From: Paenibacillus sp. FSL R10-2782
GTDB taxonomy: Bacteria; Bacillota; Bacilli; Paenibacillales; Paenibacillaceae
NCBI RefSeq assembly: GCF_038592985.1
Contig: NZ_CP151951.1
Span: forward strand, 2,037,001-2,101,000
Reading direction: 5' to 3'
DNA length: 64,000 nucleotides
Part shown: positions 42,256 to 57,576 of the stretch, one piece after another
Layout of the letters: each line of letters starts with the position of its first letter
How positions within the stretch are numbered: the first letter of the stretch is position 1
Made by a program: the position numbers and the translations under genes
The notes under the pieces: model-generated
The model's input: the letters and a program-made list of their open reading frames with translations, nothing else
What the model was told of the DNA's origin: nothing
Databases searched by the model: none

Positions 42256-42678
42256 ATGTTTAAAAATATAAAAACAGATTCAGATCGTGAGGAGGTTCTG
42301 GAGCTGCTAACCTACGCCGTGCTGGATCACCCTGAACGCGGAGAAGCAGCTTTACGTACCTATCAAACCTCGGATGACTGGAAGCTGTTCGGTGTAGAAG
42401 ATGAAGGACTTATTGTAGGTATTGTCGGATTTGAGGAGCAGGAGGATGAAACCATCGTAATCCGTCATCTGGCTGTGTTGCCTGAAAACCGTCATAGAGG
42501 ATATGCCAGAGGTATGCTGCTGACGCTCATTCAGGAACGTAATCCGAAACGGCTTACTGTGGACACCGATGCGGAAGGGGCAGACTTCTTTCGCAACGTA
42601 GGCTTTGCTGTATACGGATCGGAGGACTTGTCCGAGGATGGGCAATTTCATTGTGTGTATGAAATGGACGAAGAATAA
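42256..42678 (+). CDS. GNAT family N-acetyltransferase
   Basis: A 140-residue acetyltransferase. IVIRHLAVLPENRHRGYARGMLLTLI carries the acetyl-CoA loop; ADFFRNVGFAVYGSEDL is the last conserved stretch. The N-terminal part is short, as in small GNATs. AAGGAGAG precedes the ATG. Substrate unknown. Confidence 0.86.
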   Translation: MFKNIKTDSDREEVLELLTYAVLDHPERGEAALRTYQTSDDWKLFGVEDEGLIVGIVGFEEQEDETIVIRHLAVLPENRHRGYARGMLLTLIQERNPKRLTVDTDAEGADFFRNVGFAVYGSEDLSEDGQFHCVYEMDEE

Positions 42679-42804
42679 GCGAATCTCCGGGTCCTGCGTC
42701 TCTTTTTTTACATAAGATATGATATGTCGGGAATTGACATTATTCTCATGTAAAAGTTGATGTGCCTTTGGTTCCAAAGGCATTAGCGGGGGAGTTGGGT
42801 TCTA

Positions 42805-43443
42805 ATGGGTTACCACTATACGGCTATAGGAGATTCATTAACGACAGGTGCCGGGACGCTGCTGACTGGCGGATTTGTGCCTATCTATCGACGAATGGCG
42901 GAAGCACGTCTTCGTACTCCAGTCAGTTACGAGAATTTGGGAATCAACGGACTGACATCGCAGGAACTGCTGTCTTTGATCCGCAACAATCCGCTCTTTC
43001 GGTCGGCGTTGAACGCGGCTGAACTCATAACGGTGACGATCGGCGGGAATGATCTGCGTCCATACGTCAGCGCCCTTGCTGGAGGCTCCGGTTCGTCTGC
43101 ATCGTCCATTCCGCAAGCGGTGAACCGCACAAAAGAACATGTACGCCAAATCGTACATGCCCTGTATCAGATAAAATCCGGCCAGCGTGAGCCATTTATC
43201 ATTCGAATGGTGGGGTTGTATAATCCTTTGCCGGGCGTGCGGGAGGCGGGGATATATGTACGCCAATATAACTCATTTCTCGCTACGCTGGGCGGTCCAA
43301 ATTACCGGGTGGCGAACATTTACCCTGCGTTTGAGGGCAACGAACGGGAGCTGCTCTCGCTGGATCGGGTGCATCCGAACAGTCGCGGCTATCGCGTCAT
43401 TGCGGAGGAGCTGAATCGGCTTGGATATTCGCCATTACGGTGA
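42805..43443 (+). CDS. SGNH/GDSL family hydrolase
   Basis: A 212-residue esterase or lipase-like enzyme. The four blocks are visible: YTAIGDSLTTGAG with the catalytic Ser, ENLGINGLTSQEL with Gly, VTIGGNDLRPYVS with Asn, and LDRVHPNSRGYRVIAEEL with the Asp-x-x-His pair. There is no signal peptide. GGGGGAG lies before the ATG. Related Bacillus proteins include spore-associated esterases; the substrate is not predictable. Confidence 0.9.
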   Translation: MGYHYTAIGDSLTTGAGTLLTGGFVPIYRRMAEARLRTPVSYENLGINGLTSQELLSLIRNNPLFRSALNAAELITVTIGGNDLRPYVSALAGGSGSSASSIPQAVNRTKEHVRQIVHALYQIKSGQREPFIIRMVGLYNPLPGVREAGIYVRQYNSFLATLGGPNYRVANIYPAFEGNERELLSLDRVHPNSRGYRVIAEELNRLGYSPLR

Positions 43444-43468
43444 GCGTAGAAGGAATTTGCAACAGAAG

Positions 43469-43514
43469 AAAGAGGTCCATCATGGCTGTGTATCTGACCA
43501 TAGTGGACCTCTTT
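43469..43514. terminator. Bidirectional terminator between the SGNH and TetR genes
   Basis: AAAGAGGTCCA (43469-43479) and TGGACCTCTTT (43504-43514) are perfect complements. Confidence 0.82.
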
Positions 43515-43536
43515 ATCTTTAGCTGAATTGAACCTT

Positions 43537-44418
43537 TTAAACTTCCAAAATAGCTTTCAGCTTGGTACAGTCTTCCTGTAACTCGGGTAGCTGCTCCAAA
43601 AAAAGGAGGAGTGCTTTAACGTGGGCAGTTTCCACGTTTTGTTCCGAAAGCTCCCCCTGTAGCCTGCTTAGTATTTGCATATGTTCATTCTGGATTGCTT
43701 CATCTAATTCGATTTGTTTCAAGACTGCGTCCATATGTTGAAGCACATGGGCGATTTGTCTTCCTTTGGTCCAGATTTGATCAGAATCTTCATGGAATCC
43801 GGAATCGCGGCCCCACATGATTTGATGTTGAACATCAGGGCTCAGCATACTTTGTGCCAGCATATCCGTAATGCTGACGATAAATTCAGCCAGTGTTTGA
43901 TGTTCCGTCCAGGACAGCTCTGAATCGCTCATTCGGAAGGAATTGATAATAATGCTTTTGACGACAAACCCAATATCGTACGCATAGTCATTTATGGACT
44001 CTCCATAAGCATCAATTAAGAAATCAACCATCACGTTAGATAAATGGTGTTCAACACGGTCAATAGCTTGTGCGATTTTTTCTTCCTTGGAACCGATTAA
44101 AGGGACGGAGTATACCAGCAAATGAACTTTATTCTTATAAATCCGGCCCAGCGCAATCAAATTCAGTTGTCTCAACTTTTCACGGGAAGGTAGCTGGTGC
44201 TTCAAATAAAGTTCTTTAATATCTGCATCAAGAAGTTTTTCAATCAGGACGATTGTCCCCAGCAGCAACTCTTCTTTACTTTGAAAGTATTTATAAAAGG
44301 AAGCCTTCACCATCCCGCTTTCGCGGGCAATCTCATCGACCGAGGTGGCATCGTATCCCTTTTCTGAAAACAGGGAAAGGGCGGCATATATAATATCATC
44401 GCTCGTTATTTTTTTCAT
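43537..44418 (-). CDS. TetR/AcrR family regulator at the end of an RND operon
   Basis: A 293-residue regulator, unusually long for TetR (about 200). HTH: YAALSLFSEKGYDATSVDEIARESGMVKASFYKYFQSKEELL. The ligand-binding part is extended by a C-terminal region of about 90 Gln/Glu/Leu-rich residues that looks helical. Its start overlaps the RND permease stop by 4 bases, so it is the last gene of the three-gene operon and probably represses it. Confidence 0.88.
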   Translation of the reverse strand: MKKITSDDIIYAALSLFSEKGYDATSVDEIARESGMVKASFYKYFQSKEELLLGTIVLIEKLLDADIKELYLKHQLPSREKLRQLNLIALGRIYKNKVHLLVYSVPLIGSKEEKIAQAIDRVEHHLSNVMVDFLIDAYGESINDYAYDIGFVVKSIIINSFRMSDSELSWTEHQTLAEFIVSITDMLAQSMLSPDVQHQIMWGRDSGFHEDSDQIWTKGRQIAHVLQHMDAVLKQIELDEAIQNEHMQILSRLQGELSEQNVETAHVKALLLFLEQLPELQEDCTKLKAILEV

Positions 44419-47400
44419 TGTACCCCCAATTTTTTGCTCTGTCTTTTTAATTTCCAGCGGGCAATAACCATATACAGGGACGGAACCACAAACATCGTAA
44501 GAATGGTCGAGTACATCAATCCAAACATAATGGTATACGCCAGAGGTCTAAACATAAGTTCCCCAATTAGAGCAATCGGTATCAGACCGACAATGGCTGT
44601 CAGCGAAGTAAGCAGTATGGGGCGGAAGCGCGCTTTGGTCGCTGCAATAATCGCCTCTTTCAGTTCGATCTCTTCGCGTCTTGCATCCTCTATAAACTCG
44701 ATCAGCACAATACCGTTCCGTACGACAATACCTGCCAAGGTCATCAATCCCAGCACCCCCATAAAAGTGACCGGTGTGTTCAGAATGAACAAGCCGAGGA
44801 ATCCACCCGCAGCCGCCATATACACGGTAGTCAAGATGATAAGTGGGGTTGAGAACGAATAAAATTGCAAAAAGATCAGCATGAAGATTAATAGTATGAC
44901 GACAACATATAACCATCCTATTTCTGATAAAATGTCATCTTGTCCTGAAATCTCGCCGCCAATTTCCCAAGTGTAGCCTGGAGGAAATTTAATGTCCTGC
45001 AATTTAAGCTTGACATCCTTCATGACTTCGGAAGCTGTACGCCCGTGAACTTCAGCTTCAACAGTAATCGAACGCTTTAAATTATAATGGTTAATTTTTT
45101 GTGTTGCAAAGGATGGCTTCAACTCAGCCAATTGAGATAAAGGGATCTGAACACCATTGGCATTGGTCACATTCAATTGCTGAAACAAAATTTCAGGATT
45201 TTGATCGGTTTGGCTTAGCTTCAGCTTAATATTTATCAAATCTTTCCCCGTATCAAATCGGCTAAAGCTCACGCCATTACCCATTAACAAGAGTGTACGT
45301 GTCAGATCATTATTGCTAATCTGATATTGATCCATCGCTTGTTTATTGATTTGGAAATCCAGCGTATAGCCTTCATTTTCCATATTGTCTTGTATGTCCT
45401 GTGTTCCTCTGGTAGCCATAATGCCTTCTTTTAACTGCTGTGACAACGAACGCAACTGATCTACATCATTGCCTAAAATCCGAATGGAGATCGGCTTACC
45501 GAGAGGCACCCCCACTTTGGCTATTTTCAAGGAAATGGATTGACCCTGATAACGATCCTTTAAGATGGAGGGCCATTTGTCTGCCATTTCATCGGGATCA
45601 AATGCACCTTCTTCCCCAACAATAGCAATCTGCCCCACGGTTGTGCCTGTTTTGGCGTCAGCGGTCATATCTTGAAACAACGGGGGGGCGTCGCCGCCAG
45701 CCGCATAACTGATCGTTTCCACATGAGGCTGCTGCTTCACCCATTTGGCAATATCCTCGGTGACCCGCTTGGTTTCTTCTATAGAAGTACCTATAGGCAT
45801 ACGCACATTAATGCTTAATTCCGGATCGTTGGTTCTGGGGAACAGGTCGATCGGAATCAGAGCAAGTACACCGTACAGCGTGGTACTAATCAATAATCCT
45901 AATGAAGCATACAATGCAGGTCGCTTGATGACTTTGGGAATCAGCTCACTGACATATACGTTACGAAGAGCATCAATTTGTTTGCCCAGCAGTCCCGGCG
46001 GCTTCATGGTGGAGTTGGGCGTTTTTTGACTTCGTTGTCCATACCATTCTCTAAAGATTGGGATGACGGTAAAGGACATGAGCATGGAAGCCAATAACGT
46101 AAAGATAACAGCAAACGGTAATGGTTTTATAAGGGAGCCTGCATCGCCTGATAAAAAGAACAGCGGGGCAAAGGAGGCTACAGTTGCCAGAGTTGCGGTC
46201 AAAATGGAAATGGAAACTTCTTTTGTTCCATTTAATGCAGCTATCTTGGGACTCTCACCCAAGGTCATCATCCTGCGCTCAATATTATCATTAACCACCA
46301 CAGCATCATCGACTAGAATCCCCATTACAATAATTAAGCCAATGACCGTAACCTGATTCAATGTTATTCCGAGCATAGGGAGAATAATGAGACCTATGGC
46401 GATTGAAATAGGAATAGCCAGTGCCACAAAAGAGGATGTAATCAGATTCAAGCCCAATGTACATACGATCACAACCGCCGCAATGGCAAACAGCAATTCA
46501 CGGGTCAAGCCATGAAAAATATGATCAATCCGCTCGGTCTGTGAAAATAACGTATTCAGTTGAAACGTATTAGGCAGATCTGGTTTTAACAACTGCATCT
46601 CTTTATTTACTTTGCTATAAATCGTGTCTACGTCAGAGCCGGTATTACCGTTAATCGTCAGTGTAATAGCTGGTTTACCGTTAAAAAAGGCCATATAGCT
46701 GCTGGTGTTATGTGTAAGCAATATGGTGCCCACATCACTGAGATACACAGGAGCGCCGCTGTCCGTTCTGGAAATAATGACTTTACTCAAATCCTGAGCA
46801 TTCTTGGACTGCGTTACATTCATTCGGTACGTACGTTCATTGTAATCCAGATTGCCTATCGGATATTGCTCATTTTCCTTCTGCACTGCACTCATGAGCT
46901 GTTCCCAACTGATATGGTACTGCTGTAGCTTTTGAGCATCAATCTGAATCTGAACCTCTTGATCGGGTAATCCCTTAATTGTTACTTCCGATACACCGGG
47001 AATGGTTTTTAATTGATCCTTCCACGATTTCACCATATCATTTAGTTCATACAATTGCTCTATAGAGTCCCCCGTGATGGCGTAGGAATGGATAAATACT
47101 TTATTCAAATCATCGTTAACGACAGGCTTTTGAGCATCTGTGGGCAGAGAAGACTGGGCATCGTTTATTTTTTTGCGTAATGTATCCCAGGCTTCCTTAG
47201 CATTGGCATTGCCTTTGGTCTCAATGATAATCGTCGAAAGTCCATTTTCAGATGTAGAAGAAATCTTTTTAATATGATTGATTTCTTTCATTTTTTGTTC
47301 CAAAGGCTTCGTGACCGTTTGTTCTACCTTTTGGGGTGTAGCTCCAGGGTAGAGGGTCGTGACCACAGCGGTTTTCTTGATAATATCCGGCGTTTCCTGC

Positions 47401-47495
47401 CGGGGAAGTTGAGAGACACTATACAGCCCGGCAACAATCACCATGATAAAAATGAAGAGGGTCAGTTTTTTCTTTCGGATAAAATATGCAATCAT
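44415..47495 (-). CDS. RND efflux permease (SwrC/AcrB-like)
   Basis: A 1026-residue inner-membrane permease. First membrane segment at residues 9-29, two large extracytoplasmic loops, and the central GILVDDAVVVNDNIERRM segment, which carries the paired Asp of the proton relay; AAGGFLGLFILNTPVTFMGVLGLMTLAGIVVRNGIVLIEFIEDARREE is the second half's equivalent. It resembles Bacillus SwrC (surfactin export/self-resistance). It overlaps the adaptor gene by 4 bases upstream and the TetR gene by 4 downstream. Confidence 0.93.
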   Translation of the reverse strand: MIAYFIRKKKLTLFIFIMVIVAGLYSVSQLPRQETPDIIKKTAVVTTLYPGATPQKVEQTVTKPLEQKMKEINHIKKISSTSENGLSTIIIETKGNANAKEAWDTLRKKINDAQSSLPTDAQKPVVNDDLNKVFIHSYAITGDSIEQLYELNDMVKSWKDQLKTIPGVSEVTIKGLPDQEVQIQIDAQKLQQYHISWEQLMSAVQKENEQYPIGNLDYNERTYRMNVTQSKNAQDLSKVIISRTDSGAPVYLSDVGTILLTHNTSSYMAFFNGKPAITLTINGNTGSDVDTIYSKVNKEMQLLKPDLPNTFQLNTLFSQTERIDHIFHGLTRELLFAIAAVVIVCTLGLNLITSSFVALAIPISIAIGLIILPMLGITLNQVTVIGLIIVMGILVDDAVVVNDNIERRMMTLGESPKIAALNGTKEVSISILTATLATVASFAPLFFLSGDAGSLIKPLPFAVIFTLLASMLMSFTVIPIFREWYGQRSQKTPNSTMKPPGLLGKQIDALRNVYVSELIPKVIKRPALYASLGLLISTTLYGVLALIPIDLFPRTNDPELSINVRMPIGTSIEETKRVTEDIAKWVKQQPHVETISYAAGGDAPPLFQDMTADAKTGTTVGQIAIVGEEGAFDPDEMADKWPSILKDRYQGQSISLKIAKVGVPLGKPISIRILGNDVDQLRSLSQQLKEGIMATRGTQDIQDNMENEGYTLDFQINKQAMDQYQISNNDLTRTLLLMGNGVSFSRFDTGKDLINIKLKLSQTDQNPEILFQQLNVTNANGVQIPLSQLAELKPSFATQKINHYNLKRSITVEAEVHGRTASEVMKDVKLKLQDIKFPPGYTWEIGGEISGQDDILSEIGWLYVVVILLIFMLIFLQFYSFSTPLIILTTVYMAAAGGFLGLFILNTPVTFMGVLGLMTLAGIVVRNGIVLIEFIEDARREEIELKEAIIAATKARFRPILLTSLTAIVGLIPIALIGELMFRPLAYTIMFGLMYSTILTMFVVPSLYMVIARWKLKRQSKKLGVQ

Positions 47496-48904
47496 TTGCT
47501 GGTTCCCTCCGTGACCTGAAGAGGAAGTCCATTATAGATCAGGTTTACTCCGGTCGTAACCACACGATCCCCGACATTCAGCCCCTTGGTAATTTCGAGC
47601 TTGTTGTTGGACATCTGACCGACATTCACGATGGTTTTTAGCGCCTTGTTGTTCACCACTTTATAGACAAAGGTATCTGTACCGTTATTAATGACAGCCT
47701 TGGCCGGGAGCAAAATTTGCTCACTCTGGGTCAGTTGGCGGCCTGCCTTTACGACTTGTCCCGGGGCCCAATCACGCTGGGTGTTAGGAACAATCACTTC
47801 CACGTTGATACTGCCCGTATTGGTGTTGGTGGCCGGATAAATTTTGCTGACCGTTCCTTCTCTGTTCTCATCGTACAGTTGAAGCTGGACGGTCTGACCT
47901 TGTTTCCAGTTCGTGATTTCATGATCGGGAACAGGGAGCAGCACCTTGAGCTTGTCGATTTGTCCGATACGATATACCGGTTGTCCAGCGCTCGCCAATT
48001 GTCCGACGGTTGCTTTTTTCTCCAGAATAACGCCGGAAATCGGTGCTTTTAAAGCTGTCTTGGAGAGGGCAAGCTCGGCCTGCTTTTTGGCAATGACCGC
48101 TTGCTGGTATGCCGCAGCAGAGTTATCTTTGGAGGCTACGGCCTGTTCCTTCGCGGCGATGGCAGATTCTTTCCCGGCTTGGGCTTGCTGTAAACTGGAT
48201 GCTGCCGATTGCCGATCTTCTAATGTTGCTCCCTCCTGGATTAAGGAGAGGGCTTCTTGTGCATCCTCCAGGTCCTTGGTGGCATTGGTCAAAGCGAGCT
48301 GCACATTTTCATAATCGTTTTTGGTTGCAGCTCCCTGATCATATAAAAGCTTGGTGCGTTCAGCAGTAGCCTGTACTTTAGTCAAAGCGGATTGTGCTCT
48401 TTGCACTTTGGTGCGCACCTGCGCTTTTTCCTGCTCTCTGGCTCCTTTATTCACTTTGTTAACTCCGGCCTGAGCTGCTGCCTTTTGCGCATCAGCGGAT
48501 TGGATGGAGGCATCTGCGCTTGAAATGGCGGCTGTAGCATTTTTGATACCTGCTTGTGCTTCAAAAATAGTCGCATTCGCTTGCTCCAGTTGTAGCTGAT
48601 AGCTGGATGGATCAAGCTTCGTTAATATCTGCCCTTGGGATACGGAGTCTCCCACATTGACAACTGTGTCGCGTATTAGTCCAGATAACTCAAAAGATAC
48701 AGAGGTATCCTCATAGGGCTGTAGTGTGCCTGAAAGGTCAAAAGACGCAGACAGTGGCTCTTTTTTAACGATCATTGCTTCAACCTTTTGGTTTTGTTGT
48801 TCTGCTGCTTCATGATCACTCGATCCTGTAGATGAGCAAGCTGAGGTGAACAGAAGAATGAATATAGCAGATATGTAGAGACTGTGTTTCAACAAGATGA
48901 TCAT
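47492..48904 (-). CDS. RND adaptor lipoprotein (HlyD/MFP family)
   Basis: A 470-residue membrane fusion protein adapted to a one-membrane cell. Lipobox FTSAC near residue 23, biotinyl-lipoyl segment (GDSVSQGQILTKLDPSSY), then an unusually long Ala/Gln/Lys-rich coiled coil (about residues 110-290), second lipoyl half (ALKAPISGVILEKKATVGQLAS), beta-barrel and membrane-proximal domain. AGGAAGG directly abuts the ATG at 48904, so the real start may be one of the in-frame TTGs at 48895 or 48892 at proper spacing. It is the first gene of the operon. Confidence 0.9.
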   Translation of the reverse strand: MIILLKHSLYISAIFILLFTSACSSTGSSDHEAAEQQNQKVEAMIVKKEPLSASFDLSGTLQPYEDTSVSFELSGLIRDTVVNVGDSVSQGQILTKLDPSSYQLQLEQANATIFEAQAGIKNATAAISSADASIQSADAQKAAAQAGVNKVNKGAREQEKAQVRTKVQRAQSALTKVQATAERTKLLYDQGAATKNDYENVQLALTNATKDLEDAQEALSLIQEGATLEDRQSAASSLQQAQAGKESAIAAKEQAVASKDNSAAAYQQAVIAKKQAELALSKTALKAPISGVILEKKATVGQLASAGQPVYRIGQIDKLKVLLPVPDHEITNWKQGQTVQLQLYDENREGTVSKIYPATNTNTGSINVEVIVPNTQRDWAPGQVVKAGRQLTQSEQILLPAKAVINNGTDTFVYKVVNNKALKTIVNVGQMSNNKLEITKGLNVGDRVVTTGVNLIYNGLPLQVTEGTSK

Positions 48905-48937
48905 CCTTCCTGATTTGTACTTTACAGTTTATATTTA

Positions 48938-48949
48938 AACTCATTAGTT
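48938..48949. promoter_or_regulatory. Candidate TetR operator upstream of the RND operon
   Basis: AACT and AGTT frame CATT, inside a wider imperfect palindrome (TTTAAACT…AGTTCATAAA, 48935-48954), about 35 bases upstream of the adaptor start. Binding by the operon's own TetR protein is inference. Confidence 0.38.
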
Positions 48950-49072
48950 CATAAACGGATTATAGGGTCTGATCTGTGGCATGTCAATAACTGTTATGAA
49001 AAAACATTCCAAATTCAGGTGTCAAAAAAAGCCGATTCAGGCGAGTGGAGGTGCAGGGTGGACAAGCATAAA

Positions 49073-49105
49073 AACGACCTTTCTCAAAGGATGAGAAAGG
49101 TCGTT
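49073..49105 (-). terminator. Rho-independent terminator of the TPR gene
   Basis: AACGACCTTTCTC (49073-49085) and GAGAAAGGTCGTT (49093-49105) are perfect 13-bp complements. TTTTT follows on the minus strand. Confidence 0.9.
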
Positions 49106-49125
49106 AAGAAAAAAATATAAGCTCG

Positions 49126-49803
49126 TTAGCCGATTAATTTACGGAATAGGCTGCGTACAGCCCACTTGCGCTCACTTCGTTTGCGGTATTTGGGCAGGGA
49201 GCGGTAGACGGCAATCGACTGGTTAAAGGCTGTCGTGGCCTCCTCCTTGCGTCCCAGCAAACGATACATCAAGCCTGTCAGATAATAGCCTTCGCTGGAA
49301 GAGGACTGAATTTCCTGAAATTGCTGAAGATAGTGAAGCGACTTATTTACATCACGTTCCTTGAAAGCTGCGGCTAAATGCAAATAGGGTTCGCCGTATT
49401 GTACCCGCGGGTTAATGTCCAGTGCTTTCAGCAAATGCGCTTCTCCATCTTCGATGTGCCCCGTATGTACCTCAGCCGTTCCCCGTGCGTTCCAATAATC
49501 TGCGGAGTCCTCATAGCGGGACTCGATGTCCAGCAGCAGCTCCAAAGCCTGATGGTATTTCTTGCTCTCGATCCAAATACGAGCCAGATCGAACTTGGCA
49601 GCCACATCATTGGTATTTAAAGCGATCTGTTGACGCAGCCGGGCAGCATTGCGCCTTCTTTTCCATGGCTTGCTGATGCTGGGCAATACACCGACAAAGC
49701 TGCGATCCAATATATAGATCACAATCAGCAGTACGAGCAACGCCAGAAACGGGTTGCCGAGCAAGCTCCATAATAGAGAGAAAATTAAAAATTTCCCGAT
49801 CAT
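49126..49803 (-). CDS. Membrane-anchored tetratricopeptide repeat protein
   Basis: A 225-residue protein with a hydrophobic N-terminus (residues 3-35, FLIFSLLWSLLGNPFLALLVLLIVIYIL) followed by a basic stretch and three to four TPR units (KFDLARIWIESKKYHQALELLLDIE, YWNARGTAEVHTGHIEDGEAHLLKALDINP, GYYLTGLMYRLLGRKEEATTAFNQSIAVY). A cytoplasmic scaffold at the membrane is likely; partner unknown. It is the last core-like gene before the accessory segment. Confidence 0.82.
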   Translation of the reverse strand: MIGKFLIFSLLWSLLGNPFLALLVLLIVIYILDRSFVGVLPSISKPWKRRRNAARLRQQIALNTNDVAAKFDLARIWIESKKYHQALELLLDIESRYEDSADYWNARGTAEVHTGHIEDGEAHLLKALDINPRVQYGEPYLHLAAAFKERDVNKSLHYLQQFQEIQSSSSEGYYLTGLMYRLLGRKEEATTAFNQSIAVYRSLPKYRKRSERKWAVRSLFRKLIG

Positions 49804-49930
49804 TCTGCTCCCATCCTCCTGTATATGTCACTATCCATACTTTCCACATTATAGCATACGGTTATCTCAAGGGTCACTAGCATGGCGAGGTTGTAAAGGA
49901 GTGTAAAACAGGCAGTGTGAAGTAGTGTGT

Positions 49931-50134
49931 TCATTTATGATGTTCGATGTACATTCTTACCAGAAAGGCAACTTTGGAACGGTGGTAGCTCTCTAACTTG
50001 GTAGGGTACTTGTACGTGCTTTTGAGATAACAGTGGGCGCAAATGAAGGCACCTTTGGACATAATGATAGATTCGGTCGAATGGCAGAGTACACAACGTT
50101 CAGGCTTATGCTTATAAAAATGTCGCATGTTCAA
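49931..50134 (-). CDS. Small zinc-ribbon protein, unknown function
   Basis: A 67-residue protein with two CxxC pairs, CVLCHS (about residues 14-17) and CAHCYL (about 32-35), which can hold one zinc; the rest is basic and aromatic. The start is TTG 50134 or ATG 50128, both after GAGGGG. It starts 28 bases after the XRE gene's stop on the same strand, so the two are probably one operon. Confidence 0.55.
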   Translation of the reverse strand: MNMRHFYKHKPERCVLCHSTESIIMSKGAFICAHCYLKSTYKYPTKLESYHRSKVAFLVRMYIEHHK

Positions 50135-50162
50135 AGTTTCCCCTCATATGTACGATAGGTTT

Positions 50163-50372
50163 CTATGACTCGTCCTGAATGCCAAGTATTTGGGATACTA
50201 TTTTCCTGTGTCGTTTGGCTTTTCTTGTACCATGAATGAGATTCGACAGACGAGAAGGCGGAATTTGGTACGTCTCACAAAACGTTTTCTGATCCAGTTG
50301 CCTTTCCACAAGCTTCTGCTTGATCGTCCATCCGAAGGGCGTTACAGGGTGTTTTTTATTATTGTCCAACAT
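50163..50372 (-). CDS. Small XRE/Cro-type HTH protein
   Basis: A 69-residue protein with one helix-turn-helix (FGWTIKQKLVERQLDQKTFCETYQIPPSRLSNLIHG, about residues 13-48). Short XRE proteins of this kind occur with prophages and conjugative elements. AAGGTG lies 5 bases before the ATG. It is divergent from the RRNPP-type regulator across a 238-base gap that holds the regulator's promoter, so mutual control is plausible. Confidence 0.7.
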   Translation of the reverse strand: MLDNNKKHPVTPFGWTIKQKLVERQLDQKTFCETYQIPPSRLSNLIHGTRKAKRHRKIVSQILGIQDES

Positions 50373-50465
50373 GATTCACCTTCTCTGTGTATATAGGTTG
50401 AAAAATTAGTCTTGATTGGTTGCTAATTGGGTATTTAAAGCGTACCATGAGATAAAATAATTATC

Positions 50466-50488
50466 GAAAATAGATTTTCTTTGAAAAT
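50466..50488. promoter_or_regulatory. Triple half-site operator candidate
   Basis: GAAAAT (50466-50471), ATTTTC (50474-50479) and GAAAAT (50483-50488) alternate in orientation, giving two overlapping inverted repeats 22 bases upstream of the -35 box at 50511. Position suits a site for the HTH-TPR regulator or the divergent XRE protein. Confidence 0.42.
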
Positions 50489-50510
50489 TGCAACTTCATC
50501 GTGGGTATAA

Positions 50511-50540
50511 TTGACATTATTTATGTCTAAATTCTATAAT
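50511..50540 (+). promoter_or_regulatory. Consensus sigma-A promoter of the RRNPP-type regulator
   Basis: TTGACA (50511-50516) and TATAAT (50535-50540), both perfect, are 18 bases apart. Transcription would start near 50547. Confidence 0.72.
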
Positions 50541-50610
50541 CGGAATATTACGTAAAAAAGTAGGTTCTCTGAATGAAATTTTGAAATCATTACTGGAGGC
50601 GGGATATTCA

Positions 50611-52008
50611 TTGGAACAAGCCATTGTGATTCGTTCAGAAATACGAAAGTGTATGCAGGAAAAAGGCTTTACGCTAGGCGGTTTCTCGAAAGCAACAGAA
50701 ATAAGGGGTAGCTACCTTAGTTTATTGCTCAATCATGATCCCCATAAATATCCTCTTCCATTGCGGCATTTTGATAGTATGATCCAGGCTTTAGGAAAAC
50801 CAGAGGGATGGATGTATGAGTGTTACGTAGAAGAGTGTTTTATTACAGGAAAGCCAGACCGTCGCCGGGTGGAACCTTTTTTGCTGCGTTGTGCAGAGCT
50901 TGGGAAAACCGCTTGTATTGAACGAGTATTATCTCGTTTGATAGAGAATCTAAGTCAGATTTCTACGGTGTTTGAAATTGCAGAGAAGGTACACGCAGCA
51001 GGAAATCAGCAGGGGGCGGTACCATTCTATGAATGTGTGGCTGAACATGAGAAACACCAGCATTCCGAAACCTTGGCGATTAGCCAGTATCGACTGTTTC
51101 GTGCCGCCTTGGGACAAGACTTGCAGAAAAATAGAGATGCAGCCACACGGTTTTTACAGTTTCGAAATCGTTTACCTGTACATTTCCAGTTGGATGGACT
51201 ATTACAATTGGCAAACACATATTATACATTGAGTGACTGGAAACGAATGGGGGAATGCGCTGACGAGTTAATCGTATTGGCAAAGGTCGTTTATCAGGAG
51301 CAGAATCAAAGAAAAGGGAGTAAGCGAGAAAAGACTCCTTTGAATACCGAAAGACATTTGGTTGTGTATTATGGTCAAGGGTACCTATTAAAAGCAACTG
51401 AATATGAGAAGCAGGGTTTCTATGAAGACTCTAGAAAATATATTGATGGATATTCTGATTTGTCTTGGTTTAAAGACCTGAATATTATTGGAACAGAAGA
51501 AGTGAATAAGTTTAAAATGTTTGCAGTAGCTAATTCGTATATGTTGGATATGCTTATGGGTCATAATTATATGTTAACGGAATATACACATTATTTAGCC
51601 TCACATCCTCGTGAAGTTCTATTTGGATTGGCGATTATCGCAGGGACAGCAAATAAATACGGTTTTTCTATAGATAAATCCCTAGAGGAATTATCTGAAG
51701 AAATATCAAAGTTCAACCAATATGATGATATTATTGCATTAGGACGAAGATTACATTTTCATTATCATTTATCCCTGTATTATTTAGATAAAGGTGCGTC
51801 AGAACAGTGTATTCAAAATACTTTACAGAGTCTCAATTTATCAGTTACTATTAACAACAGTAGTATGTTTGCTCAGGGAGTTGCTTTGTTTGAATTATGC
51901 AGAGAACAAGCTACAGAAGGCCAACTAAACTGTTACAAAAAAATTTTGGAGGAGGTAAGAGTACATGAGAGGATTAATCTCTGCCATCTTAGTAATAAGT
52001 TTCTTTAG
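50611..52008 (+). CDS. HTH-TPR regulator of RRNPP type (peptide-pheromone receptor candidate)
   Basis: About 465 residues. N-terminal XRE-like HTH (IRKCMQEKGFTLGGFSKATEIRGSYLSLLLNH, about residues 10-42), then a long all-helical region with TPR-like repeats (ACIERVLSRLIENL; LLQLANTYYTLSDWKRMGECADELI; HYHLSLYYLDKGASEQCIQNTLQSLNLS). This is the layout of AimR, PlcR and other RRNPP receptors, which bind a re-imported peptide and change DNA binding. The TTG at 50611 has GGAGGCGGG upstream; the frame also opens at TTG 50581 with no site. The 3' end overlaps the small pre-peptide gene at 51965, a hallmark of rap-phr type pairs. Family assignment is from architecture only. Confidence 0.78.
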   Translation: MEQAIVIRSEIRKCMQEKGFTLGGFSKATEIRGSYLSLLLNHDPHKYPLPLRHFDSMIQALGKPEGWMYECYVEECFITGKPDRRRVEPFLLRCAELGKTACIERVLSRLIENLSQISTVFEIAEKVHAAGNQQGAVPFYECVAEHEKHQHSETLAISQYRLFRAALGQDLQKNRDAATRFLQFRNRLPVHFQLDGLLQLANTYYTLSDWKRMGECADELIVLAKVVYQEQNQRKGSKREKTPLNTERHLVVYYGQGYLLKATEYEKQGFYEDSRKYIDGYSDLSWFKDLNIIGTEEVNKFKMFAVANSYMLDMLMGHNYMLTEYTHYLASHPREVLFGLAIIAGTANKYGFSIDKSLEELSEEISKFNQYDDIIALGRRLHFHYHLSLYYLDKGASEQCIQNTLQSLNLSVTINNSSMFAQGVALFELCREQATEGQLNCYKKILEEVRVHERINLCHLSNKFL

Positions 52009-52090
52009 TTTTACTTTCTGGAGTGGACAAATTTCAACTACTTTTCCTGATGCTATTATAAAGCCAATGGATCACGGTGTAGGTTCCTAA
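51965..52090 (+). CDS. Signal pre-peptide, candidate pheromone of the adjacent RRNPP-type receptor
   Basis: A 41-residue peptide beginning MRGLISAILVISFFS, i.e. one charge and a hydrophobic export segment (residues 4-19), and ending PMDHGVGS. Its ATG has GGAGGAGG 9 bases upstream. The first 44 bases overlap the 3' end of the receptor gene in another frame. Phr/AimP-type pro-peptides are exported, cut, and the C-terminal 5-7 residues re-imported; DHGVGS is the natural candidate here. A stem-loop terminator follows at 52202. No experimental support is implied; the pairing rests on position, size and export-signal shape. Confidence 0.66.
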   Translation: MRGLISAILVISFFSFTFWSGQISTTFPDAIIKPMDHGVGS

Positions 52091-52201
52091 TTTCAAGACT
52101 GTCATACAAGAAATTTTCTTATCGTAATTTCTTTATATATTTATATGATTAAGGTTTCAATAAAAAAGATAATAGACCCACATACACTACATAATGACAT
52201 C

Positions 52202-52231
52202 AACCCTTGCCAATTTTGTGACAAGGGTTTT
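52202..52231 (+). terminator. Terminator of the regulator-peptide operon
   Basis: AACCCTTG (52202-52209) pairs with CAAGGGTT (52222-52229), followed by TT, C, and further T-rich sequence. Confidence 0.7.
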
Positions 52232-52307
52232 CTGCTTTTTTTCTCTCATTTAATCACAGCAAAAAGGAGTAATATTCTGTTAAAAGATACGAAAAGGTAC
52301 TTTCGGC

Positions 52308-52505
52308 ATGGGGAAAATGATTTATTCAAGCAATCACATGGAGCGATGTAAAAGAGATATCAGGATAAAATACGGATATACGTCATTTCAACCTTCTGAT
52401 AACATCGCGTACATCCTACTTTATAGTAAGCGTGGACTTATAGTGCGAATATTAGTTCCACCTGACAAACTGTTACAGATACCTGAGGTTAACAGGATTT
52501 TTTAA
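52308..52505 (+). CDS. Small unknown ORF
   Basis: A 65-codon frame with AAAGGT before its ATG. It reads a basic middle (HMERCKRDIRIKYGY) and a hydrophobic stretch (NIAYILLYSKRGLIVRILV). I do not recognise it. It lies between the pheromone operon terminator and the YjcZ gene and may be a decayed or a real small protein. Confidence 0.25.
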   Translation: MGKMIYSSNHMERCKRDIRIKYGYTSFQPSDNIAYILLYSKRGLIVRILVPPDKLLQIPEVNRIF

Positions 52506-52515
52506 TTGAAGTAAT

Positions 52516-52568
52516 TTCCGTTTAGCCTTGTCAAATTAATTGAATGACACATACGGTATACAGTATCT
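52516..52568 (+). repeat. Promoter-like repeat, copy 1 (pair of 56595-56646)
   Basis: About 53 bases largely identical to 56595-56646 (TTCCGTTT, AATTGAATGA, CATA and GTATCT in common). It ends just upstream of the YjcZ gene and contains CATACGGTA (52550-52558), which fits the CATAnnnTA -10 of the mother-cell sigma factor SigK. No clear -35 is seen. Confidence 0.55.
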
Positions 52569-52587
52569 TAAAAAAGGAGGAGTTCAT

Positions 52588-52734
52588 GTGAGTGGATGTG
52601 TTGGAGGAGCTGAGCGTAGGGAAGAGCGTAGGGAAGAGCGTAGGGAAAACTGTTTTGGTGCTTTCACATCGCCAGCAGCAATTTTGGTGCTCTTTATTCT
52701 GTTGGTTATCATCACTAAAGCCTGTTGGGTTTAA
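52588..52734 (+). CDS. YjcZ-type small sporulation membrane protein
   Basis: A 48-residue peptide from a GTG with AAGGAGG 7 bases upstream. Layout: Gly/Ala/Cys start, a charged block, and a hydrophobic C-terminal segment, AAILVLFILLVIITKACW, that matches the YjcZ family of small spore-coat or forespore membrane proteins. The charged block is three tandem 12-bp units (GAGCGTAGGGAA, 52612-52647), each giving ERRE, where homologues usually have Gly/Tyr. The CATACGGTA upstream suits sporulation control. Confidence 0.65.
   Translation: MSGCVGGAERREERREERRENCFGAFTSPAAILVLFILLVIITKACWV
52612..52647 (+). repeat. Three tandem 12-bp repeats inside the YjcZ-type gene
   Basis: GAGCGTAGGGAA is repeated three times without change, encoding (ERRE)3. 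A slipped-strand expansion that keeps the frame. Confidence 0.85.
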
Positions 52735-52849
52735 TTTTTAAAGCAATGTCACGGTAATGCCCGATCATTGTTTCGGTATAAAAGGCTCTATCGGTATGTA
52801 ACCGGTAGAGTCTTTGTAGTGTGTACCTGTCATTTTTTTTCGGGTATTC

Positions 52850-53240: not shown

Positions 53241-53500
53241 TTTGAATTAAGAGTAGATGTAGAGAAGGACTCCACTGGTATGTAGCCGGAATGGAGTCCT
53301 TCATATCATTTATTTAGTTGAATACTCACTTACTTCAAACGTAAGTATTTTATTGAATATTACGTAGTCTTTACGGTTGCTGAATGGACCCTTGTTATTA
53401 TTGTGCTTATCAATGGCAAAGAATGAAGCACCTCTACCAGCATCTTTAGCATCATACCAAGCGATGAAGGAATTCAGTTCTTTTTTGCTTAAATCGAATT
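53241..53500. repeat. 260-bp duplicated segment, copy A
   Basis: Matches 59149-59408 in the same orientation with no gaps; I count about 16 differences by eye (about 94% identity). It covers the terminator and the 3' end of the SPRY-protein gene. Confidence 0.85.
53264..53302 (-). terminator. Terminator of the SPRY-protein gene
   Basis: GAAGGACTCCA (53264-53274) and TGGAGTCCTTC (53292-53302) are perfect complements. The same structure occurs in the copy at 59172-59210. Confidence 0.75.
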
Positions 53501-54296
53501 CTTTATCTAAACCATTGTCCATTGTTACAGTCAGAATTGCACGGTCACCAGTAGGCTGGGTGGTACCATCTGTATCCGACGGATTCGGTGTTGTAGTTGG
53601 ATCAGGTTTAGTAGACGGATCCGGTGTTGTAGATGGATCGGGCTTTGTAGATGGATCGGGCTTTGTAGATGGATCAGGCTTTGTAGATGGGTCAGGTGTG
53701 GAAGATCCGCCCGTAGCTTGATAAGGTAAAAATCCTTCAGGAACTGGATACTTAAACTCACTTGCTCCAAAATTAGCTTCAAAAGATATTTTCTGGCCAG
53801 TTCCGCTTAAAACAACAGGGAAAATCTGGGTCCCCTCTAGTTCAGATGGTTTAATGGAATTAGCTCCGCGTGAGACCCCATTAATGTACCAAACAATTTT
53901 ATCGTTATCTAAGTCCAATGCAATGCCGATAACGTAACCAACTCCAAAACCAGAATTGTAACCTACTGCTACTGGTGATGTGATGTTATTCCAAATTTGA
54001 CCACCAGCTCCATAAATCACTTGGTATTGTTTGTCCGATTCACCTGTTATTCCTACGTATGAGGCAACATTGTTTACCTTTACTTCCCAATACCATTTCC
54101 CATTTGTTTTCCCTACTGTCGCTCTGTCCCTTGTTTCTCCCTTCTCACGATCAATAGTAGTTGTTGTAGATCCATTTGTCCAAGTTACGTTTGTAGTCTC
54201 AGCTTTTGTAACTGTAGGAAATAATGAGAACACAGAAACTCCAATAAATAATGCTAACAAGATACTCCCAAGCTTTTTGAACATTTTATTATTCAT
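53310..54296 (-). CDS. Secreted SPRY-domain protein with Pro-Asp-Pro linker and a shared C-terminal module
   Basis: A 328-residue exported protein. Signal peptide residues 1-31 (ending TVTKA). SPRY/B30.2-like domain about 38-195: GKWYWEVKVNNVASYVGITGE, then VGYVIGIALDLDNDKIVWYINGV, a layout rare in bacteria. Linker of six to seven PDPSTK hexapeptides (about 198-245). C-terminal module about 250-328: AILTVTMDNGLDKEFDLSKK, SFIAWYDAKDAG, KHNNNKGPFSNRKDYVIFNK, ILTFEVSEYSTK. This module is also at the end of the F5/8-type gene and in the remnant at 59218. Function unknown; likely surface binding. Confidence 0.82.
   Translation of the reverse strand: MNNKMFKKLGSILLALFIGVSVFSLFPTVTKAETTNVTWTNGSTTTTIDREKGETRDRATVGKTNGKWYWEVKVNNVASYVGITGESDKQYQVIYGAGGQIWNNITSPVAVGYNSGFGVGYVIGIALDLDNDKIVWYINGVSRGANSIKPSELEGTQIFPVVLSGTGQKISFEANFGASEFKYPVPEGFLPYQATGGSSTPDPSTKPDPSTKPDPSTKPDPSTTPDPSTKPDPTTTPNPSDTDGTTQPTGDRAILTVTMDNGLDKEFDLSKKELNSFIAWYDAKDAGRGASFFAIDKHNNNKGPFSNRKDYVIFNKILTFEVSEYSTK
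53596..53703. repeat. Six 18-bp repeats encoding the PDPST linker
   Basis: Six units related to GATGGATCGGGCTTTGTA (plus strand), the middle three nearly identical, encoding (PDPSTK)n on the minus strand. Likely variable in copy number between strains. Confidence 0.8.
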
Positions 54297-54456
54297 GACT
54301 TCCTCCTAAAATTATGTAATAACAAAATGGATTATAAAACTGAAATAAAGGAATGTCTAAACATTTATATCTATATATTTAAATATATGTGTAGACAAAT
54401 TCCGAGGAATTTATTACCTTTGTATCTGTTCAACTAGATCATTAGGGGGAAATAAA

Positions 54457-55081
54457 GTGAAAATGCAGTTCCTTAAAAAAGTAAGTATCTTGTTTGGAAT
54501 GTTTTTATTTGGGGCACTTGCGCTTTTTCATTCAAGCATGTATGCAGCGTCTGAGCCTGGGAGTAGTGAAGGGGTAACCAATCTTATACCTAAAATGACT
54601 TCTAATACTGCACCGTCAGGCGAAGCAAGCGCAAGCAGCACTTGGAGTTCTGGACATCAGGCCTATAATGCGTTTGATCATACAGCTGAAGGAATTGGAT
54701 GGGCAACTAAAGATGGGGTACCGTACGGTTGGTTAGGTTATGAATTTGAAAAACCAGTAGCTATAAATACGTACACGTTAGAACCTCGAAAAAATTATAC
54801 TGAATCGGGTACAGAATCTCCGAAAGTTTGGACTTTTGAGGGATGGGACGGAGCAAATTGGGTTATACTAGATACTCAAAAAAATATTACAGACTGGAAA
54901 CAAGGAGTCAAGAAAGTTTTCACCTTTAATAATGACACAACATACAAAAAATATCGACTGAATATCACAGAAAATAACGGGCGTCCTTATTATGTGACCT
55001 TAGGTGAAATGGAAATGATGTATGATCCTTCAATTGTGGCCCCTGAGCCCGCAGAGCCGTCTCAACCAACAGGCAACCGTG
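54457..55081 (+). pseudogene. Secreted F5/8 type C (discoidin) protein, 5' part of an IS-interrupted gene
   Basis: Codons 1-208 of a gene cut by an insertion sequence. Signal peptide (residues 1-30, ending SSMYA). F5/8 type C domain about 48-190 (AYNAFDHTAEGIGWATKDG, GWLGYEFEKPVAINTYTLEPR, KVWTFEGWDGANWVILD, YYVTLGEMEMMYDPS). A Pro-rich PAEPSQPTGNR tail leads into the IS at 55082. Joining to 56313-56539 in frame gives 283 residues, ending in the same C-terminal module as the SPRY protein. GGGGGAAATAAA precedes the start. As it stands the product would end in VDCQH encoded by the IS. Confidence 0.85.
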
Positions 55082-55099
55082 TGGATTGTCAACACTAAA

Positions 55100-55900
55100 C
55101 TAGACAACTTTTTTATGGTGCCTCTGCTTGAACTCAGCCGGACTCAAGTACTCCAGAGAACCGTGAATCCGAATATGGTTGAACCAGTGCACATAGTCAT
55201 GTAATTCTGTGGTTAGCTCAGCTAGACTTTCAAAATGACGTTTCTTCACAAACTCCGTTTTGAAAATTTTAAACGTGGCTTCCGCAACGGCGTTGTCATA
55301 GGGGCAGCCTTTCATGCTTAAGGAACGCTCAATCTGAAAAGCCTCCAGCGCATCGTCGATGAGCTTATTCTTGAATTCATTGCCTCGGTCCGTGTGGAAG
55401 AGCTGAATGTCATTCAGGTTGCCCTTAATCGAAGCCAAAGCACGGTAAACCAGCTTGGCATCCTTGTGTGCCCCCGCACTGTAACCGATAATTTCGCGGT
55501 TAAACAGATCCACAAAGAAGCATACGTAATTCCAATATGAACCTACTCTAACGTACGTCAGATCGCTTACGACGACAGATAACGCCTGCTCTTGCTCAAA
55601 TTTCCGGTCCAATACATTCGCTTGCTTGGCTTCATTGCATTTCGTGGGATGAGGCTTGTACTGAGCGATCGTATACGAGGAAACCAGCCCATATTCTTTC
55701 ATGATTCGTCCTATTCTCCGCCTGGATACCGTAAAGCCTTGTTGGTGCAACTCTTTTTTTATCTTACGCGTACCATAGTTTTGTCGGCTGCTTTGAAAAA
55801 TGTCCATAATCAGGGAGGGAAGCTCATCCTCCGATGTCACTTCCACTTTGTTTTCTTCATAATAATAGGTGCTTCTAGGGAGCTTTAGGACGTCGCACAT
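55100..55900 (-). CDS. IS3-family transposase OrfB (DDE)
   Basis: Coding frame with DDE residues in their usual context: SDLTYV, FHTDRGNEFKN, and the final Glu in DNAVAEATFKIFKTEF. The frame stays open beyond the first ATG back to about 55970, where it overlaps OrfA, so the full product is probably OrfAB made by -1 frameshifting near ACGAAAG. It contains an HTH_21-type region (FQSSRQNYGTRKIKKELHQQGFTVSRRRIGRIMKEYGL). Confidence 0.9.
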   Translation of the reverse strand: MCDVLKLPRSTYYYEENKVEVTSEDELPSLIMDIFQSSRQNYGTRKIKKELHQQGFTVSRRRIGRIMKEYGLVSSYTIAQYKPHPTKCNEAKQANVLDRKFEQEQALSVVVSDLTYVRVGSYWNYVCFFVDLFNREIIGYSAGAHKDAKLVYRALASIKGNLNDIQLFHTDRGNEFKNKLIDDALEAFQIERSLSMKGCPYDNAVAEATFKIFKTEFVKKRHFESLAELTTELHDYVHWFNHIRIHGSLEYLSPAEFKQRHHKKVV

Positions 55901-55941
55901 TGCTGATACCGAGTATTTATGTTTATTCTGGCGAATGACAT

Positions 55942-56226
55942 TTACTTTCGTCCCATGATCAGCGCGGCTTGCTTTAAAATGTCATTCTCCATGAGCAGTT
56001 GCTTGTTCTGTTTTCGAAGCTCGATCAGTTCTAATTCCTCTGGAGTTCGGTTGTCTTTCTCTTTGAAGGATCCAGATGTGGAACTCTGTTTCACCCATTT
56101 ATCTAACGATGAAGGATTCAAATCATACTCTTGAATGATATCCTTTCGCGGTTTACCACTCTGATAGAGTTGAACCATTTGTGCTTTAAATTCAGCGCTA
56201 AAGGTACGTCTTTCTTTTTTAGTCAT
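55942..56226 (-). CDS. IS3-family transposase OrfA
   Basis: A 94-residue helix-turn-helix protein: RTFSAEFKAQMVQLYQSGKPRKDIIQEY, SSLDKWVKQ, then a leucine-zipper-like ELIELRKQNKQLLMENDILKQA. It binds the IS ends. Confidence 0.9.
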   Translation of the reverse strand: MTKKERRTFSAEFKAQMVQLYQSGKPRKDIIQEYDLNPSSLDKWVKQSSTSGSFKEKDNRTPEELELIELRKQNKQLLMENDILKQAALIMGRK

Positions 56227-56309
56227 CGTCCATTTGCTCCTTCTAGGTTGGTCTGTAGTCTACTATATTAGACCACAATTTTTCTGTCTAGAAGAGTGTA
56301 GCCGATCCA

Positions 56310-56539
56310 GTGCAATATTGGTAGTCACCATGACCACCGGCTTAGAAAAAGAGTTCGACCTGAGTATGAAAGAGGTCAACGACTTCATTACCTGGTATGA
56401 AGGCAAGCAGGCTGGAACCAGCAAAGCTTCATATGCCATAAATAAACACGACAATAATAAAGGTCCATTTAGTAGTCGTAAGGATTACATGCTATATGAG
56501 AGGATATTAACGTTTGAAGTGAGTGAATACTCAAAATAA
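56310..56539 (+). pseudogene. 3' part of the IS-interrupted F5/8-type gene (shared C-terminal module)
   Basis: Begins with the duplicated GTG and continues AILVVTMTTGLEKEFDLSMK, then ITWYEGKQAG, KHDNNKGPFSSRKDYMLYER and ILTFEVSEYSK, closely matching the SPRY protein's C-terminal module. Removing the IS with one GTG makes the frame ...GNR-AILVV... exact, against GDR-AILTV in the SPRY protein. Confidence 0.85.
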
Positions 56540-56594
56540 GAATAAATCCCCGCTAAACTTAATTGGTCGGCGGGGAATTTTTCGTTGAGGTGAA

Positions 56595-56646
56595 TTCCGT
56601 TTGCCTAGCCAAATTTATTGAATGAAACATAAGGTATGCGGTATCT
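56595..56646 (+). repeat. Promoter-like repeat, copy 2 (pair of 52516-52568)
   Basis: About 52 bases matching 52516-52568, with CATAAGGTA (56628-56636), again a CATAnnnTA box. No YjcZ gene follows; IS630 transposase sequence comes next, so this copy is orphaned. Confidence 0.5.
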
Positions 56647-56721
56647 ATATTAGTTGAACTAAAGATTAGAAAACTATGGTAGAATTATACTTTAGAAACA
56701 TTTTTGATCTTTTTGAAAAGA

Positions 56722-56874
56722 GTGTTAACCGAATATCCGACAGGTAAAATTGCGATGATCCTGGACAATGCGCGAATTCACCATGCGAAGCTGCTGGCAT
56801 CGTTCCTAAACGAGATGAAGGATCTACTTGAGCCTCCCCATAGTCTCGAACTGAATGCAGTCGAAGGGGGCTGA
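56722..56874 (+). pseudogene. IS630-type transposase remnant, C-terminal part
   Basis: Reads VLTEYPTGKIAMILDNARIHHAKLL and ends in a degenerate PHSLELNAVEG, i.e. the last two catalytic acidic positions of IS630 transposases with part of the usual LPPYSPELNP block lost. It complements the N-terminal remnant at 52850-53240. The 150 bases after it, to about 57028, hold nothing I recognise. Confidence 0.7.
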
Positions 56875-57027
56875 AATGGCTTAGTCCGATGTGAATGTTT
56901 CTTTAATCGAATTAAGCATTAAGCACCCGTTGTGCAATCCGAAAGCAATGGTGACACGCTACTGACTACCTTGGTGGTTTTTTTGTATTTAAGGGATGAA
57001 TGTTAAAGGGTAATTAATCTATATATT

Positions 57028-57063
57028 ACAAAAGACTCCATCATTATTGACAGAGTCTTTTGT
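57028..57063 (-). terminator. Rho-independent terminator of the PLAT-domain gene
   Basis: ACAAAAGACTC (57028-57038) and GAGTCTTTTGT (57053-57063) are perfect complements. Confidence 0.78.
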
Positions 57064-57087
57064 ATTAACTGTTATAAGAATTTGTTA

Positions 57088-57576
57088 TTAGGATGGGAAA
57101 AGTGTTTCGGAATCTGCGGAACCGCCATCACCAAGCCAGCGGTTAGGGCCTGCAAATGAGAAAGTTTTCCCGTTTCCAGTTATTTTAATATTAGCGATTT
57201 TCCAACCAGGTTTATATCCAGATCCATCTGTTCTAATCGTAATTTTTCTGATGTCACCAAGGTTGCTGGTGCTGATTCTTGTTGTATCAGAATCCCCCTG
57301 TTCAAAGCTTCCATTGAGTGTAGCGGTAGCATAATCTCCATTAGAACCATACAGAGTTATAGAAATATTTGAATCGGTTCCAGCATCTTTAAGATTGGCA
57401 GTGTTTACAGTAACAACATATTCAACATTAGCAAAAGGTGTAACTGACTCTATACTTCTACTAGAGTCTTGAAATGAACTATAAGTGTCACTTGTGACCT
57501 GATCGGCAAAAGAAGGCGCTGCGAAAGCTACAGATGAGATAAACAGTGCTGATGCTAGTAAAGATACTTTTTTCAT
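57088..57576 (-). CDS. Small secreted PLAT-domain protein
   Basis: A 162-residue exported protein. Signal peptide residues 1-24 (ending PSFA-DQ). PLAT/LH2 beta-sandwich about residues 50-145: EYVVTVNTANLKDAGTDSNI, ITLYGSNGDYATATLNGSFEQG, DIRKITIRTDGSGYKPGWKI and KTFSFAGPNRWL, the lipid- or membrane-binding fold of lipoxygenases and alpha-toxin C-terminus. No catalytic domain is attached. AAAGGTGG lies upstream of the ATG. It may bind lipids or surfaces outside the cell. Confidence 0.8.
   Translation of the reverse strand: MKKVSLLASALFISSVAFAAPSFADQVTSDTYSSFQDSSRSIESVTPFANVEYVVTVNTANLKDAGTDSNISITLYGSNGDYATATLNGSFEQGDSDTTRISTSNLGDIRKITIRTDGSGYKPGWKIANIKITGNGKTFSFAGPNRWLGDGGSADSETLFPS

Follow-up and report, generated by a model that had tools for sequence, protein, structure and literature searches.

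An AloR-AloP quorum-sensing operon of Paenibacillus with a ligand half and pheromone gene probably exchanged between lineages at a fixed site

Introduction

The window analyzed in this work, a stretch of 64,000 nucleotides from Paenibacillus sp. FSL R10-2782, contains a regulator gene whose 3' end overlaps a small ORF. The questions raised by this locus are whether the two genes form a receptor and its peptide pheromone, as a sequence-only reading had proposed, to which known family such a pair would belong, and how it varies among related genomes.

The receptor gene and its small ORF

The features of the locus are listed below with window coordinates and, in parentheses, their basis.

50163..50372, minus strand: small divergent XRE/HTH gene, 69 aa (ORF; PHROG 1468 'transcriptional repressor', E 5e-18)
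50466..50488, plus strand: GAAAAT/ATTTTC/GAAAAT triple half-site, candidate operator of presumed function (sequence)
50511..50540, plus strand: TTGACA-18-TATAAT promoter of aloR-aloP (12/12 consensus)
50611..52008, plus strand: aloR-type receptor, 465 aa, N-terminal HTH and TPR-like helices (ORF, homologues, model)
51948..51955, plus strand: GGAGGAGG, ribosome-binding site of the small ORF (sequence)
51965..52090, plus strand: aloP-type pre-peptide, 41 aa, hydrophobic start, tail PMDHGVGS (ORF, counterparts in genomes G006 and G092)
52202..52242, plus strand: probable terminator of the aloRP operon, a hairpin with U-run (RNA fold)
52308..52505, plus strand: 65-codon ORF 3' of the terminator (ORF; frame interrupted in G092)
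52588..52734, plus strand: YjcZ-like small membrane protein, 48 aa (Pfam YjcZ_2, E 9e-4, under the curated cut-off)

The receptor frame starts with TTG at 50611, preceded by a GGAGG site, and GGAGGAGG lies nine bases ahead of the ATG of the small ORF at 51965. The elements named in the sequence-only reading (the 465-aa HTH-TPR receptor, the 44-nt overlap between its 3' end and the 41-codon ORF, the exact GGAGGAGG site, the hydrophobic start and PMDHGVGS) were all found in the sequence. So was the perfect TTGACA/TATAAT promoter; of the 12 promoter-like sites between 50150 and 52650 (8.0 expected from shuffles), no other is a 12/12 match. An export signal was predicted for the small ORF with hydropathy as the sole basis (mean 2.56 over 12 residues), and a protein search with the 41 aa returned the identical entry as its sole match. 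The terminator of the earlier reading is borne out in part: a hairpin and a U-run, which begins six bases past the stem, are present, but the fold is only modest (-11.4 kcal/mol, z -2.15, a level reached by 8 of 200 shuffles) and it is missing from the output of a consensus scan with a loop limit of 8. The 65-codon ORF gave no Pfam family, and the YjcZ-like gene is not conserved at the corresponding place in G006. Both were considered as regulatory targets, and no evidence was found for either.

Membership in the Alo family

The locus is an Alo system (AloR-AloP), a type of RRNPP quorum sensing of Paenibacillaceae published in 2020, in which an HTH-TPR receptor is followed by a pre-peptide of 32-50 aa (Voichek et al., 2020, PMC7425212). 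This family membership supports the earlier receptor-plus-pheromone reading. A new kind of switch is ruled out, since the family was described in 2020 and P. terrae NRRL B-30644 (G092), which carries the 78% homologue of the receptor, was among the genomes surveyed (PMC7425212). That survey counted 16 AloRs in P. polymyxa ATCC 842 and 40 in NRRL B-30644, 27 of the latter with a peptide gene; the 40 receptor places that we found in G092 equal the published number. A total of 274 proteins match the receptor at E<=1e-30, and among the best 120 of these 274, which were listed, the named organisms are Paenibacillus, Brevibacillus and Saccharibacillus. A scan of genome contigs with the receptor gave 3 loci. 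The receptor matched no model of Pfam or NCBIfam, and its best PHROG match reached only E 0.098; its N-terminus gave a SinR-type HTH by profile (E 9e-4). The structure model (pLDDT 90.7), for which the window receptor was aligned with 74 of the 120 listed homologues (75 sequences in all), consists of an N-terminal helical bundle containing the HTH, followed by repeat helices. In a Foldseek search with this model, designed and general TPR proteins came first and RapF ranked 40th; the matches to RRNPP receptors tied with those to unrelated TPR proteins.

A tested member of the family is Alo13. Its signal SHGRGG, the C-terminal hexapeptide of AloP13, reduces a spo0E-like transcript within ten minutes and nearly silences an AloR13-driven reporter in B. 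subtilis; AloR activates and the peptide turns it off (PMC7425212). A spo0E-like gene lies directly downstream in six P. polymyxa Alo systems and is not obligatory (PMC7425212). AloP13 is carried by a locus in our set (L027, 22 of 23 residues of the published pro-peptide) whose receptor is 43% identical to that of the window. By analogy with AloP13, the mature signal of aloP in the window is probably its last six residues, DHGVGS.

The genome of the window (G000; one contig, 5.60 Mb) contains 21 places that match the receptor: the receptor itself, paralogues from 45% identity downward and a few fragments. The 3' ends of many paralogues carry a hydrophobic small ORF, mostly at offsets of -38 to -50 nt (-38, -44, -47, -50), and some do not. 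HG- or GG-bearing tails recur (FNHGMG, HHGGGA, GHVGGS, HHGVNG), and the DHGVGS tail fits this pattern in sequence; similarity to SHGRGG, the pheromone that has been tested, is seen in many small-ORF tails of the family. The arrangement recurs beyond chance. A hydrophobic small ORF was found at the receptor 3' end in 83 of 118 AloR-type loci, and HG within its last nine residues in 46 of 118, compared with 2 and 0 of 42 other frame ends of the window (frames >=200 codons). Fragments of receptors were kept out of the 118 loci, as were ten places in G092 that lack a locus. The set contains a few false ORFs from the automatic pick, and its loci are not independent, because orthologues of several genomes are included. 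Duplicated AloP tails were seen in L024 and L025 (FGHGNG...YGHGNG) and in L044 (NGSGG twice), and could possibly represent promiscuous intermediates; the duplication in L024 and L025 is reminiscent of the intermediate with a doubled pheromone that has been proposed for Rap-Phr (PMC5199041).

Alleles at the fixed site

The site is syntenic in five genomes, including that of the window, with an upstream flank 92.7-98.6% identical and a downstream flank 88-94% identical in three of them; in G006 the downstream flank stops at 52501. G006 has the same allele as the window, its receptor being 94% identical in amino acids and its AloP different by one residue. G093 is assigned to the same species as the window strain and its flanks are 98.6% (42435-50384) and 94% (52310-52830) identical, but its receptor only 57%, and the intergenic region including the promoter differs as well. 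Its aloP is degenerate, with the receptor frame continuing into it; the best leftover small ORF has 29 aa, a TTG start, no ribosome-binding site and no HG tail. G034 resembles G093, and its receptor is broken by an internal stop. G092 has a mixed pattern relative to the window: nucleotide identity is 92-94% over the intergenic region and the HTH half, 67-69% over the last part of aloR, 63% over aloP, 88% downstream of the terminator and 97-100% beyond it, starting at 52506. Its aloP counterpart has 42 aa, a GTG start and the tail PLDHGMDH. The C-terminal half of a P. peoriae receptor (P0003) is 74% identical to that of G092 and 60% to that of the window.

The elements outside the receptor follow these allele types to different degrees. 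TATAAT is conserved in 5/5 aligned alleles, and the terminator segment is 75-88% identical in the four other alleles. The triple half-site tracks the HTH half, being present in the window, G006 and G092 and absent from G093 and G034; the three carriers are few as independent sequences and 93-94% identical in that stretch anyway. The XRE gene product is 97-100% identical in G093, G034 and G092 and is split over two frames in G006. Relatives of the XRE gene adjoin further AloR loci (L158, L140, L169, L150, L007, L128) in more than one arrangement.

Probable exchange of the sensing cassette

Divergence between the alleles is not uniform along aloR. Third-position differences between the window and G092 rise from 28/170 codons (1-170) to 110/225 (226-450; p 1e-11), and those between the window and G006 show the reverse pattern, from 34/170 to 4/215 (251-465; p 1e-9). 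The best single split falls at codon 215 for G092 and at codon 143 for G006, matched by 0 of 2000 permutations in each case; both kinds of test (Fisher and permutation) assume that codons vary independently. Along the gene, dS relative to G092 runs 0.25 (codons 1-100), 0.29, 0.71, 2.46 (251-350) and 1.91, where values above 1 are near saturation and thus rough, and relative to G006 it runs 0.37, 0.32, 0.18, 0.02 and 0.03. Flanking genes have dS of 0.08-0.13 relative to G092, and the TPR and RND genes 0.08-0.20 over G092 and G006, the comparison with G006 being made without the membrane-fusion gene because of a frame slip at an indel. The C-terminal half of the window receptor is thus closer to G006 than the N-terminal half is. 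The dS shift and the split points imply that the C-terminal half and aloP of the window and of G006 have a recent common origin, although they sit on N-terminal halves that have diverged more, and that G092 carries an old, different C-terminal half and aloP. Furthermore, aloP changes together with the C-terminal half of aloR. At the level of sequence, these alignments demonstrate allele replacement at a fixed site, and we read the pattern as the exchange of pheromone-sensing cassettes between lineages. We consider it very probable that the locus is an aloR-aloP quorum-sensing operon in which the ligand half and aloP are exchanged as a cassette. The available text of four papers (PMC7425212, PMC9765709, PMC10075063, PMC12700828) gave no description of pherotype exchange at Alo loci, and a literature search on receptor exchange gave no match.

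The C-terminal half and aloP might instead have diverged in place by diversifying selection without recombination, as Rap-Phr pairs diverge through intralocus phr duplication (PMC5199041), and the duplicated AloP tails described above would suit such a course. We consider it unlikely, because selection on the protein sequence alone is insufficient where synonymous divergence also shifts along the gene, upward toward G092 (roughly) and downward toward G006.

It is less likely still that the regulator is an orphan and the small ORF a non-functional overlap. Orphan AloRs are known (PMC7425212), and at this site G093 and G034 have lost a usable aloP; both keep a receptor there (broken in G034), so the peptide can be dispensed with. 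The loss of the downstream ORF and of its tail, which the sequence-only reading had regarded as speaking against a pair, was thus found in one allele type only. On the other hand, the small ORF keeps its frame, ribosome-binding site, hydrophobic start and DHG tail in the window, G006 and G092, in the last despite 63% nucleotide identity, and it varies along with the receptor C-terminal half. Six database proteins (P0004, P0006-P0010; P0005 is the receptor of G093 itself) are 55-60% identical to the window receptor and share the extended C-terminus of G093. Together with L049 (8189-9652), P0004-P0010 form an orphan group in which the receptor C-terminus extends over what was formerly aloP (LLLLGLDKT...), an extension that is conserved in several Paenibacillus; the signal of this allele group would be fused or lost.

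Neighborhood of the locus

Ten neighbor proteins between 43.5 and 59.1 kb were tested. They comprise a TetR-like regulator, an RND permease and its adaptor, a TPR protein, one protein without a family, exported proteins with SPRY, F5/8-type C or PLAT domains, and two IS3 transposase frames; the two-frame IS3-type transposase stands beside the exported proteins at 53310-57576. It is extremely unlikely that the locus belongs to a mobile element and acts as an arbitrium-like lysis-lysogeny or element-transfer switch, as suggested earlier from the divergent XRE gene. Some findings point that way: the XRE gene hits a family of phage repressors, there is an IS3 transposase 3-4 kb downstream, and relatives of AloR were found in two records of Brevibacillus phages, in 35 of plasmids and on 4 viral contigs. 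Two exported neighbors also match PHROGs named tail protein (F5/8, E 9e-42) or virion structural protein (SPRY, E 2e-11), matches which we take to reflect shared surface domains. Against such a switch, none of the ten neighbors is an integrase, lysogeny or transfer gene, and the site is syntenic in five genomes.

Elsewhere, relatives do occur on phages. Brevibacillus phage SecTim467 (L047, KT151957.1, 5631-7392) encodes an AloR relative (35% identity) that is closely preceded by a Spo0E-like gene; a search of the receptor 3' end gave no hydrophobic small ORF. Three of the four viral contigs were examined (L189 is a cut-off match). These IMG/VR contigs (L186, L187, L188) have a hydrophobic small ORF near the receptor 3' end, with the tails THGAGG, EHGADD and IHGSDD and with the exact receptor end blurred in L187 and L188; they are Alo-type pairs on what are likely prophages.

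Comparable allele variation at other Alo loci

Fifteen of the 21 places in G000 were compared with G093 in pairs chosen by receptor and flank matches, leaving out L004, L007, L012, L013, L020 and L021 (fragments, weak or partnerless). Seven of the 15 receptors are 98-100% identical over their full length. In five others (L008, L009, L010, L014, L017) the first third is 95-99% identical and the remaining two thirds 75-91%. Identity by thirds is 88, 63 and 52% for L002, with flanks of 91 and 100%, and 93, 84 and 90% for L003, whose upstream flank has no match. The window locus is replaced as a whole. The downstream flank alignments are patchy for L001, L009, L015 and L017.

The Alo13 locus corresponds to L002. 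Across ten genomes its N-terminal half is 79-97% identical in nucleotides and the downstream spo0E-like stretch 90-100%, while the C-terminal half and aloP are only 42-71% identical in the seven of ten genomes with another type; the farther upstream flank ranges over 45-97%. The spo0E-like ORF could be read in all five Alo13 loci looked at, and the tails found are FNHGMG, FYHGAGG, SHGRGG, GHGNGH and GHGIGG. Among 31 aligned sequences with an Alo13-type N-terminal half (at least 88%, a few proteins being represented by two entries) there are seven C-terminal types, five from genomes with checked flanks and two from database proteins alone. The mean identity of type representatives is 95% for the N-terminal half vs. 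47% for the C-terminal half. G092 shares the C-terminal half of the window genome at the Alo13 locus and not at the window locus.

Proposed working and meaning

We hypothesize that AloP is exported and cut to its C-terminal DHGVGS, as in AloP13, and that this peptide would be re-imported by the oligopeptide permease. It would then bind the C-terminal helical-repeat half of AloR and alter the activity of the DNA-binding regulator, as in Alo13. The direction of regulation may also be that of Alo13, with AloR activating and the peptide turning it off. The likeliest targets would be the promoter of the operon itself and the divergent XRE gene, because the intergenic region and the HTH half vary jointly among the alleles; no spo0E-like gene (SpoOE match) was found among the three downstream ORFs up to 52734. 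Swapping of the ligand half and aloP at the fixed site would give strains of different pherotype, presumably with lost cross-talk.

More broadly, we lean slightly towards the view that Alo loci are built for part exchange, with a fixed module (site, promoter, HTH half and target gene) and a replaceable sensing module (AloR ligand half and AloP) joined at about codon 145-215. They would together form a combinatorial identity code of about twenty channels, because variation affects several loci per genome without running in parallel among them, and SHGRGG would be one of five in-place Alo13 pherotypes, with two more receptor types seen as sequences only. Neighboring strains may be mutually deaf on a channel, because relatives carry different receptor-signal combinations at the same place. 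If exchange is true, peptide effects in one Paenibacillus strain need not hold in its neighbors, which bears on mixed inoculants of plant-associated Paenibacillus and on specificity change in intracellular pheromone receptors. Natural receptor chimaeras should then keep DNA binding and change the signal, a test of which was not found in the published text available. The family is already published (PMC7425212), and the allele pattern of the locus merits a study in its own right.

Comparison with known systems

The window locus resembles Alo13 of P. polymyxa in its HTH and TPR-like receptor, the overlapping small ORF with a hydrophobic start, the HG-containing C-terminal tail and the many genomic paralogues. 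It differs in receptor identity (43%), in the tail DHGVGS, in the divergent XRE gene and in that no spo0E-like gene was found downstream. AimR-AimP is borne by temperate phages beside lysogeny genes, whereas the window locus has none in its ten neighbors and occupies a syntenic chromosomal site; arbitrium peptide sequences also differ from that of the window. We know of no DNA-binding role for Rap. Rap-Phr, PlcR-PapR and ComQXPA of Bacillus resemble Alo in having many receptor and signal alleles, as far as the sources at hand describe them, whereas at the window locus the HTH half and promoter are kept and the ligand half and peptide are replaced.
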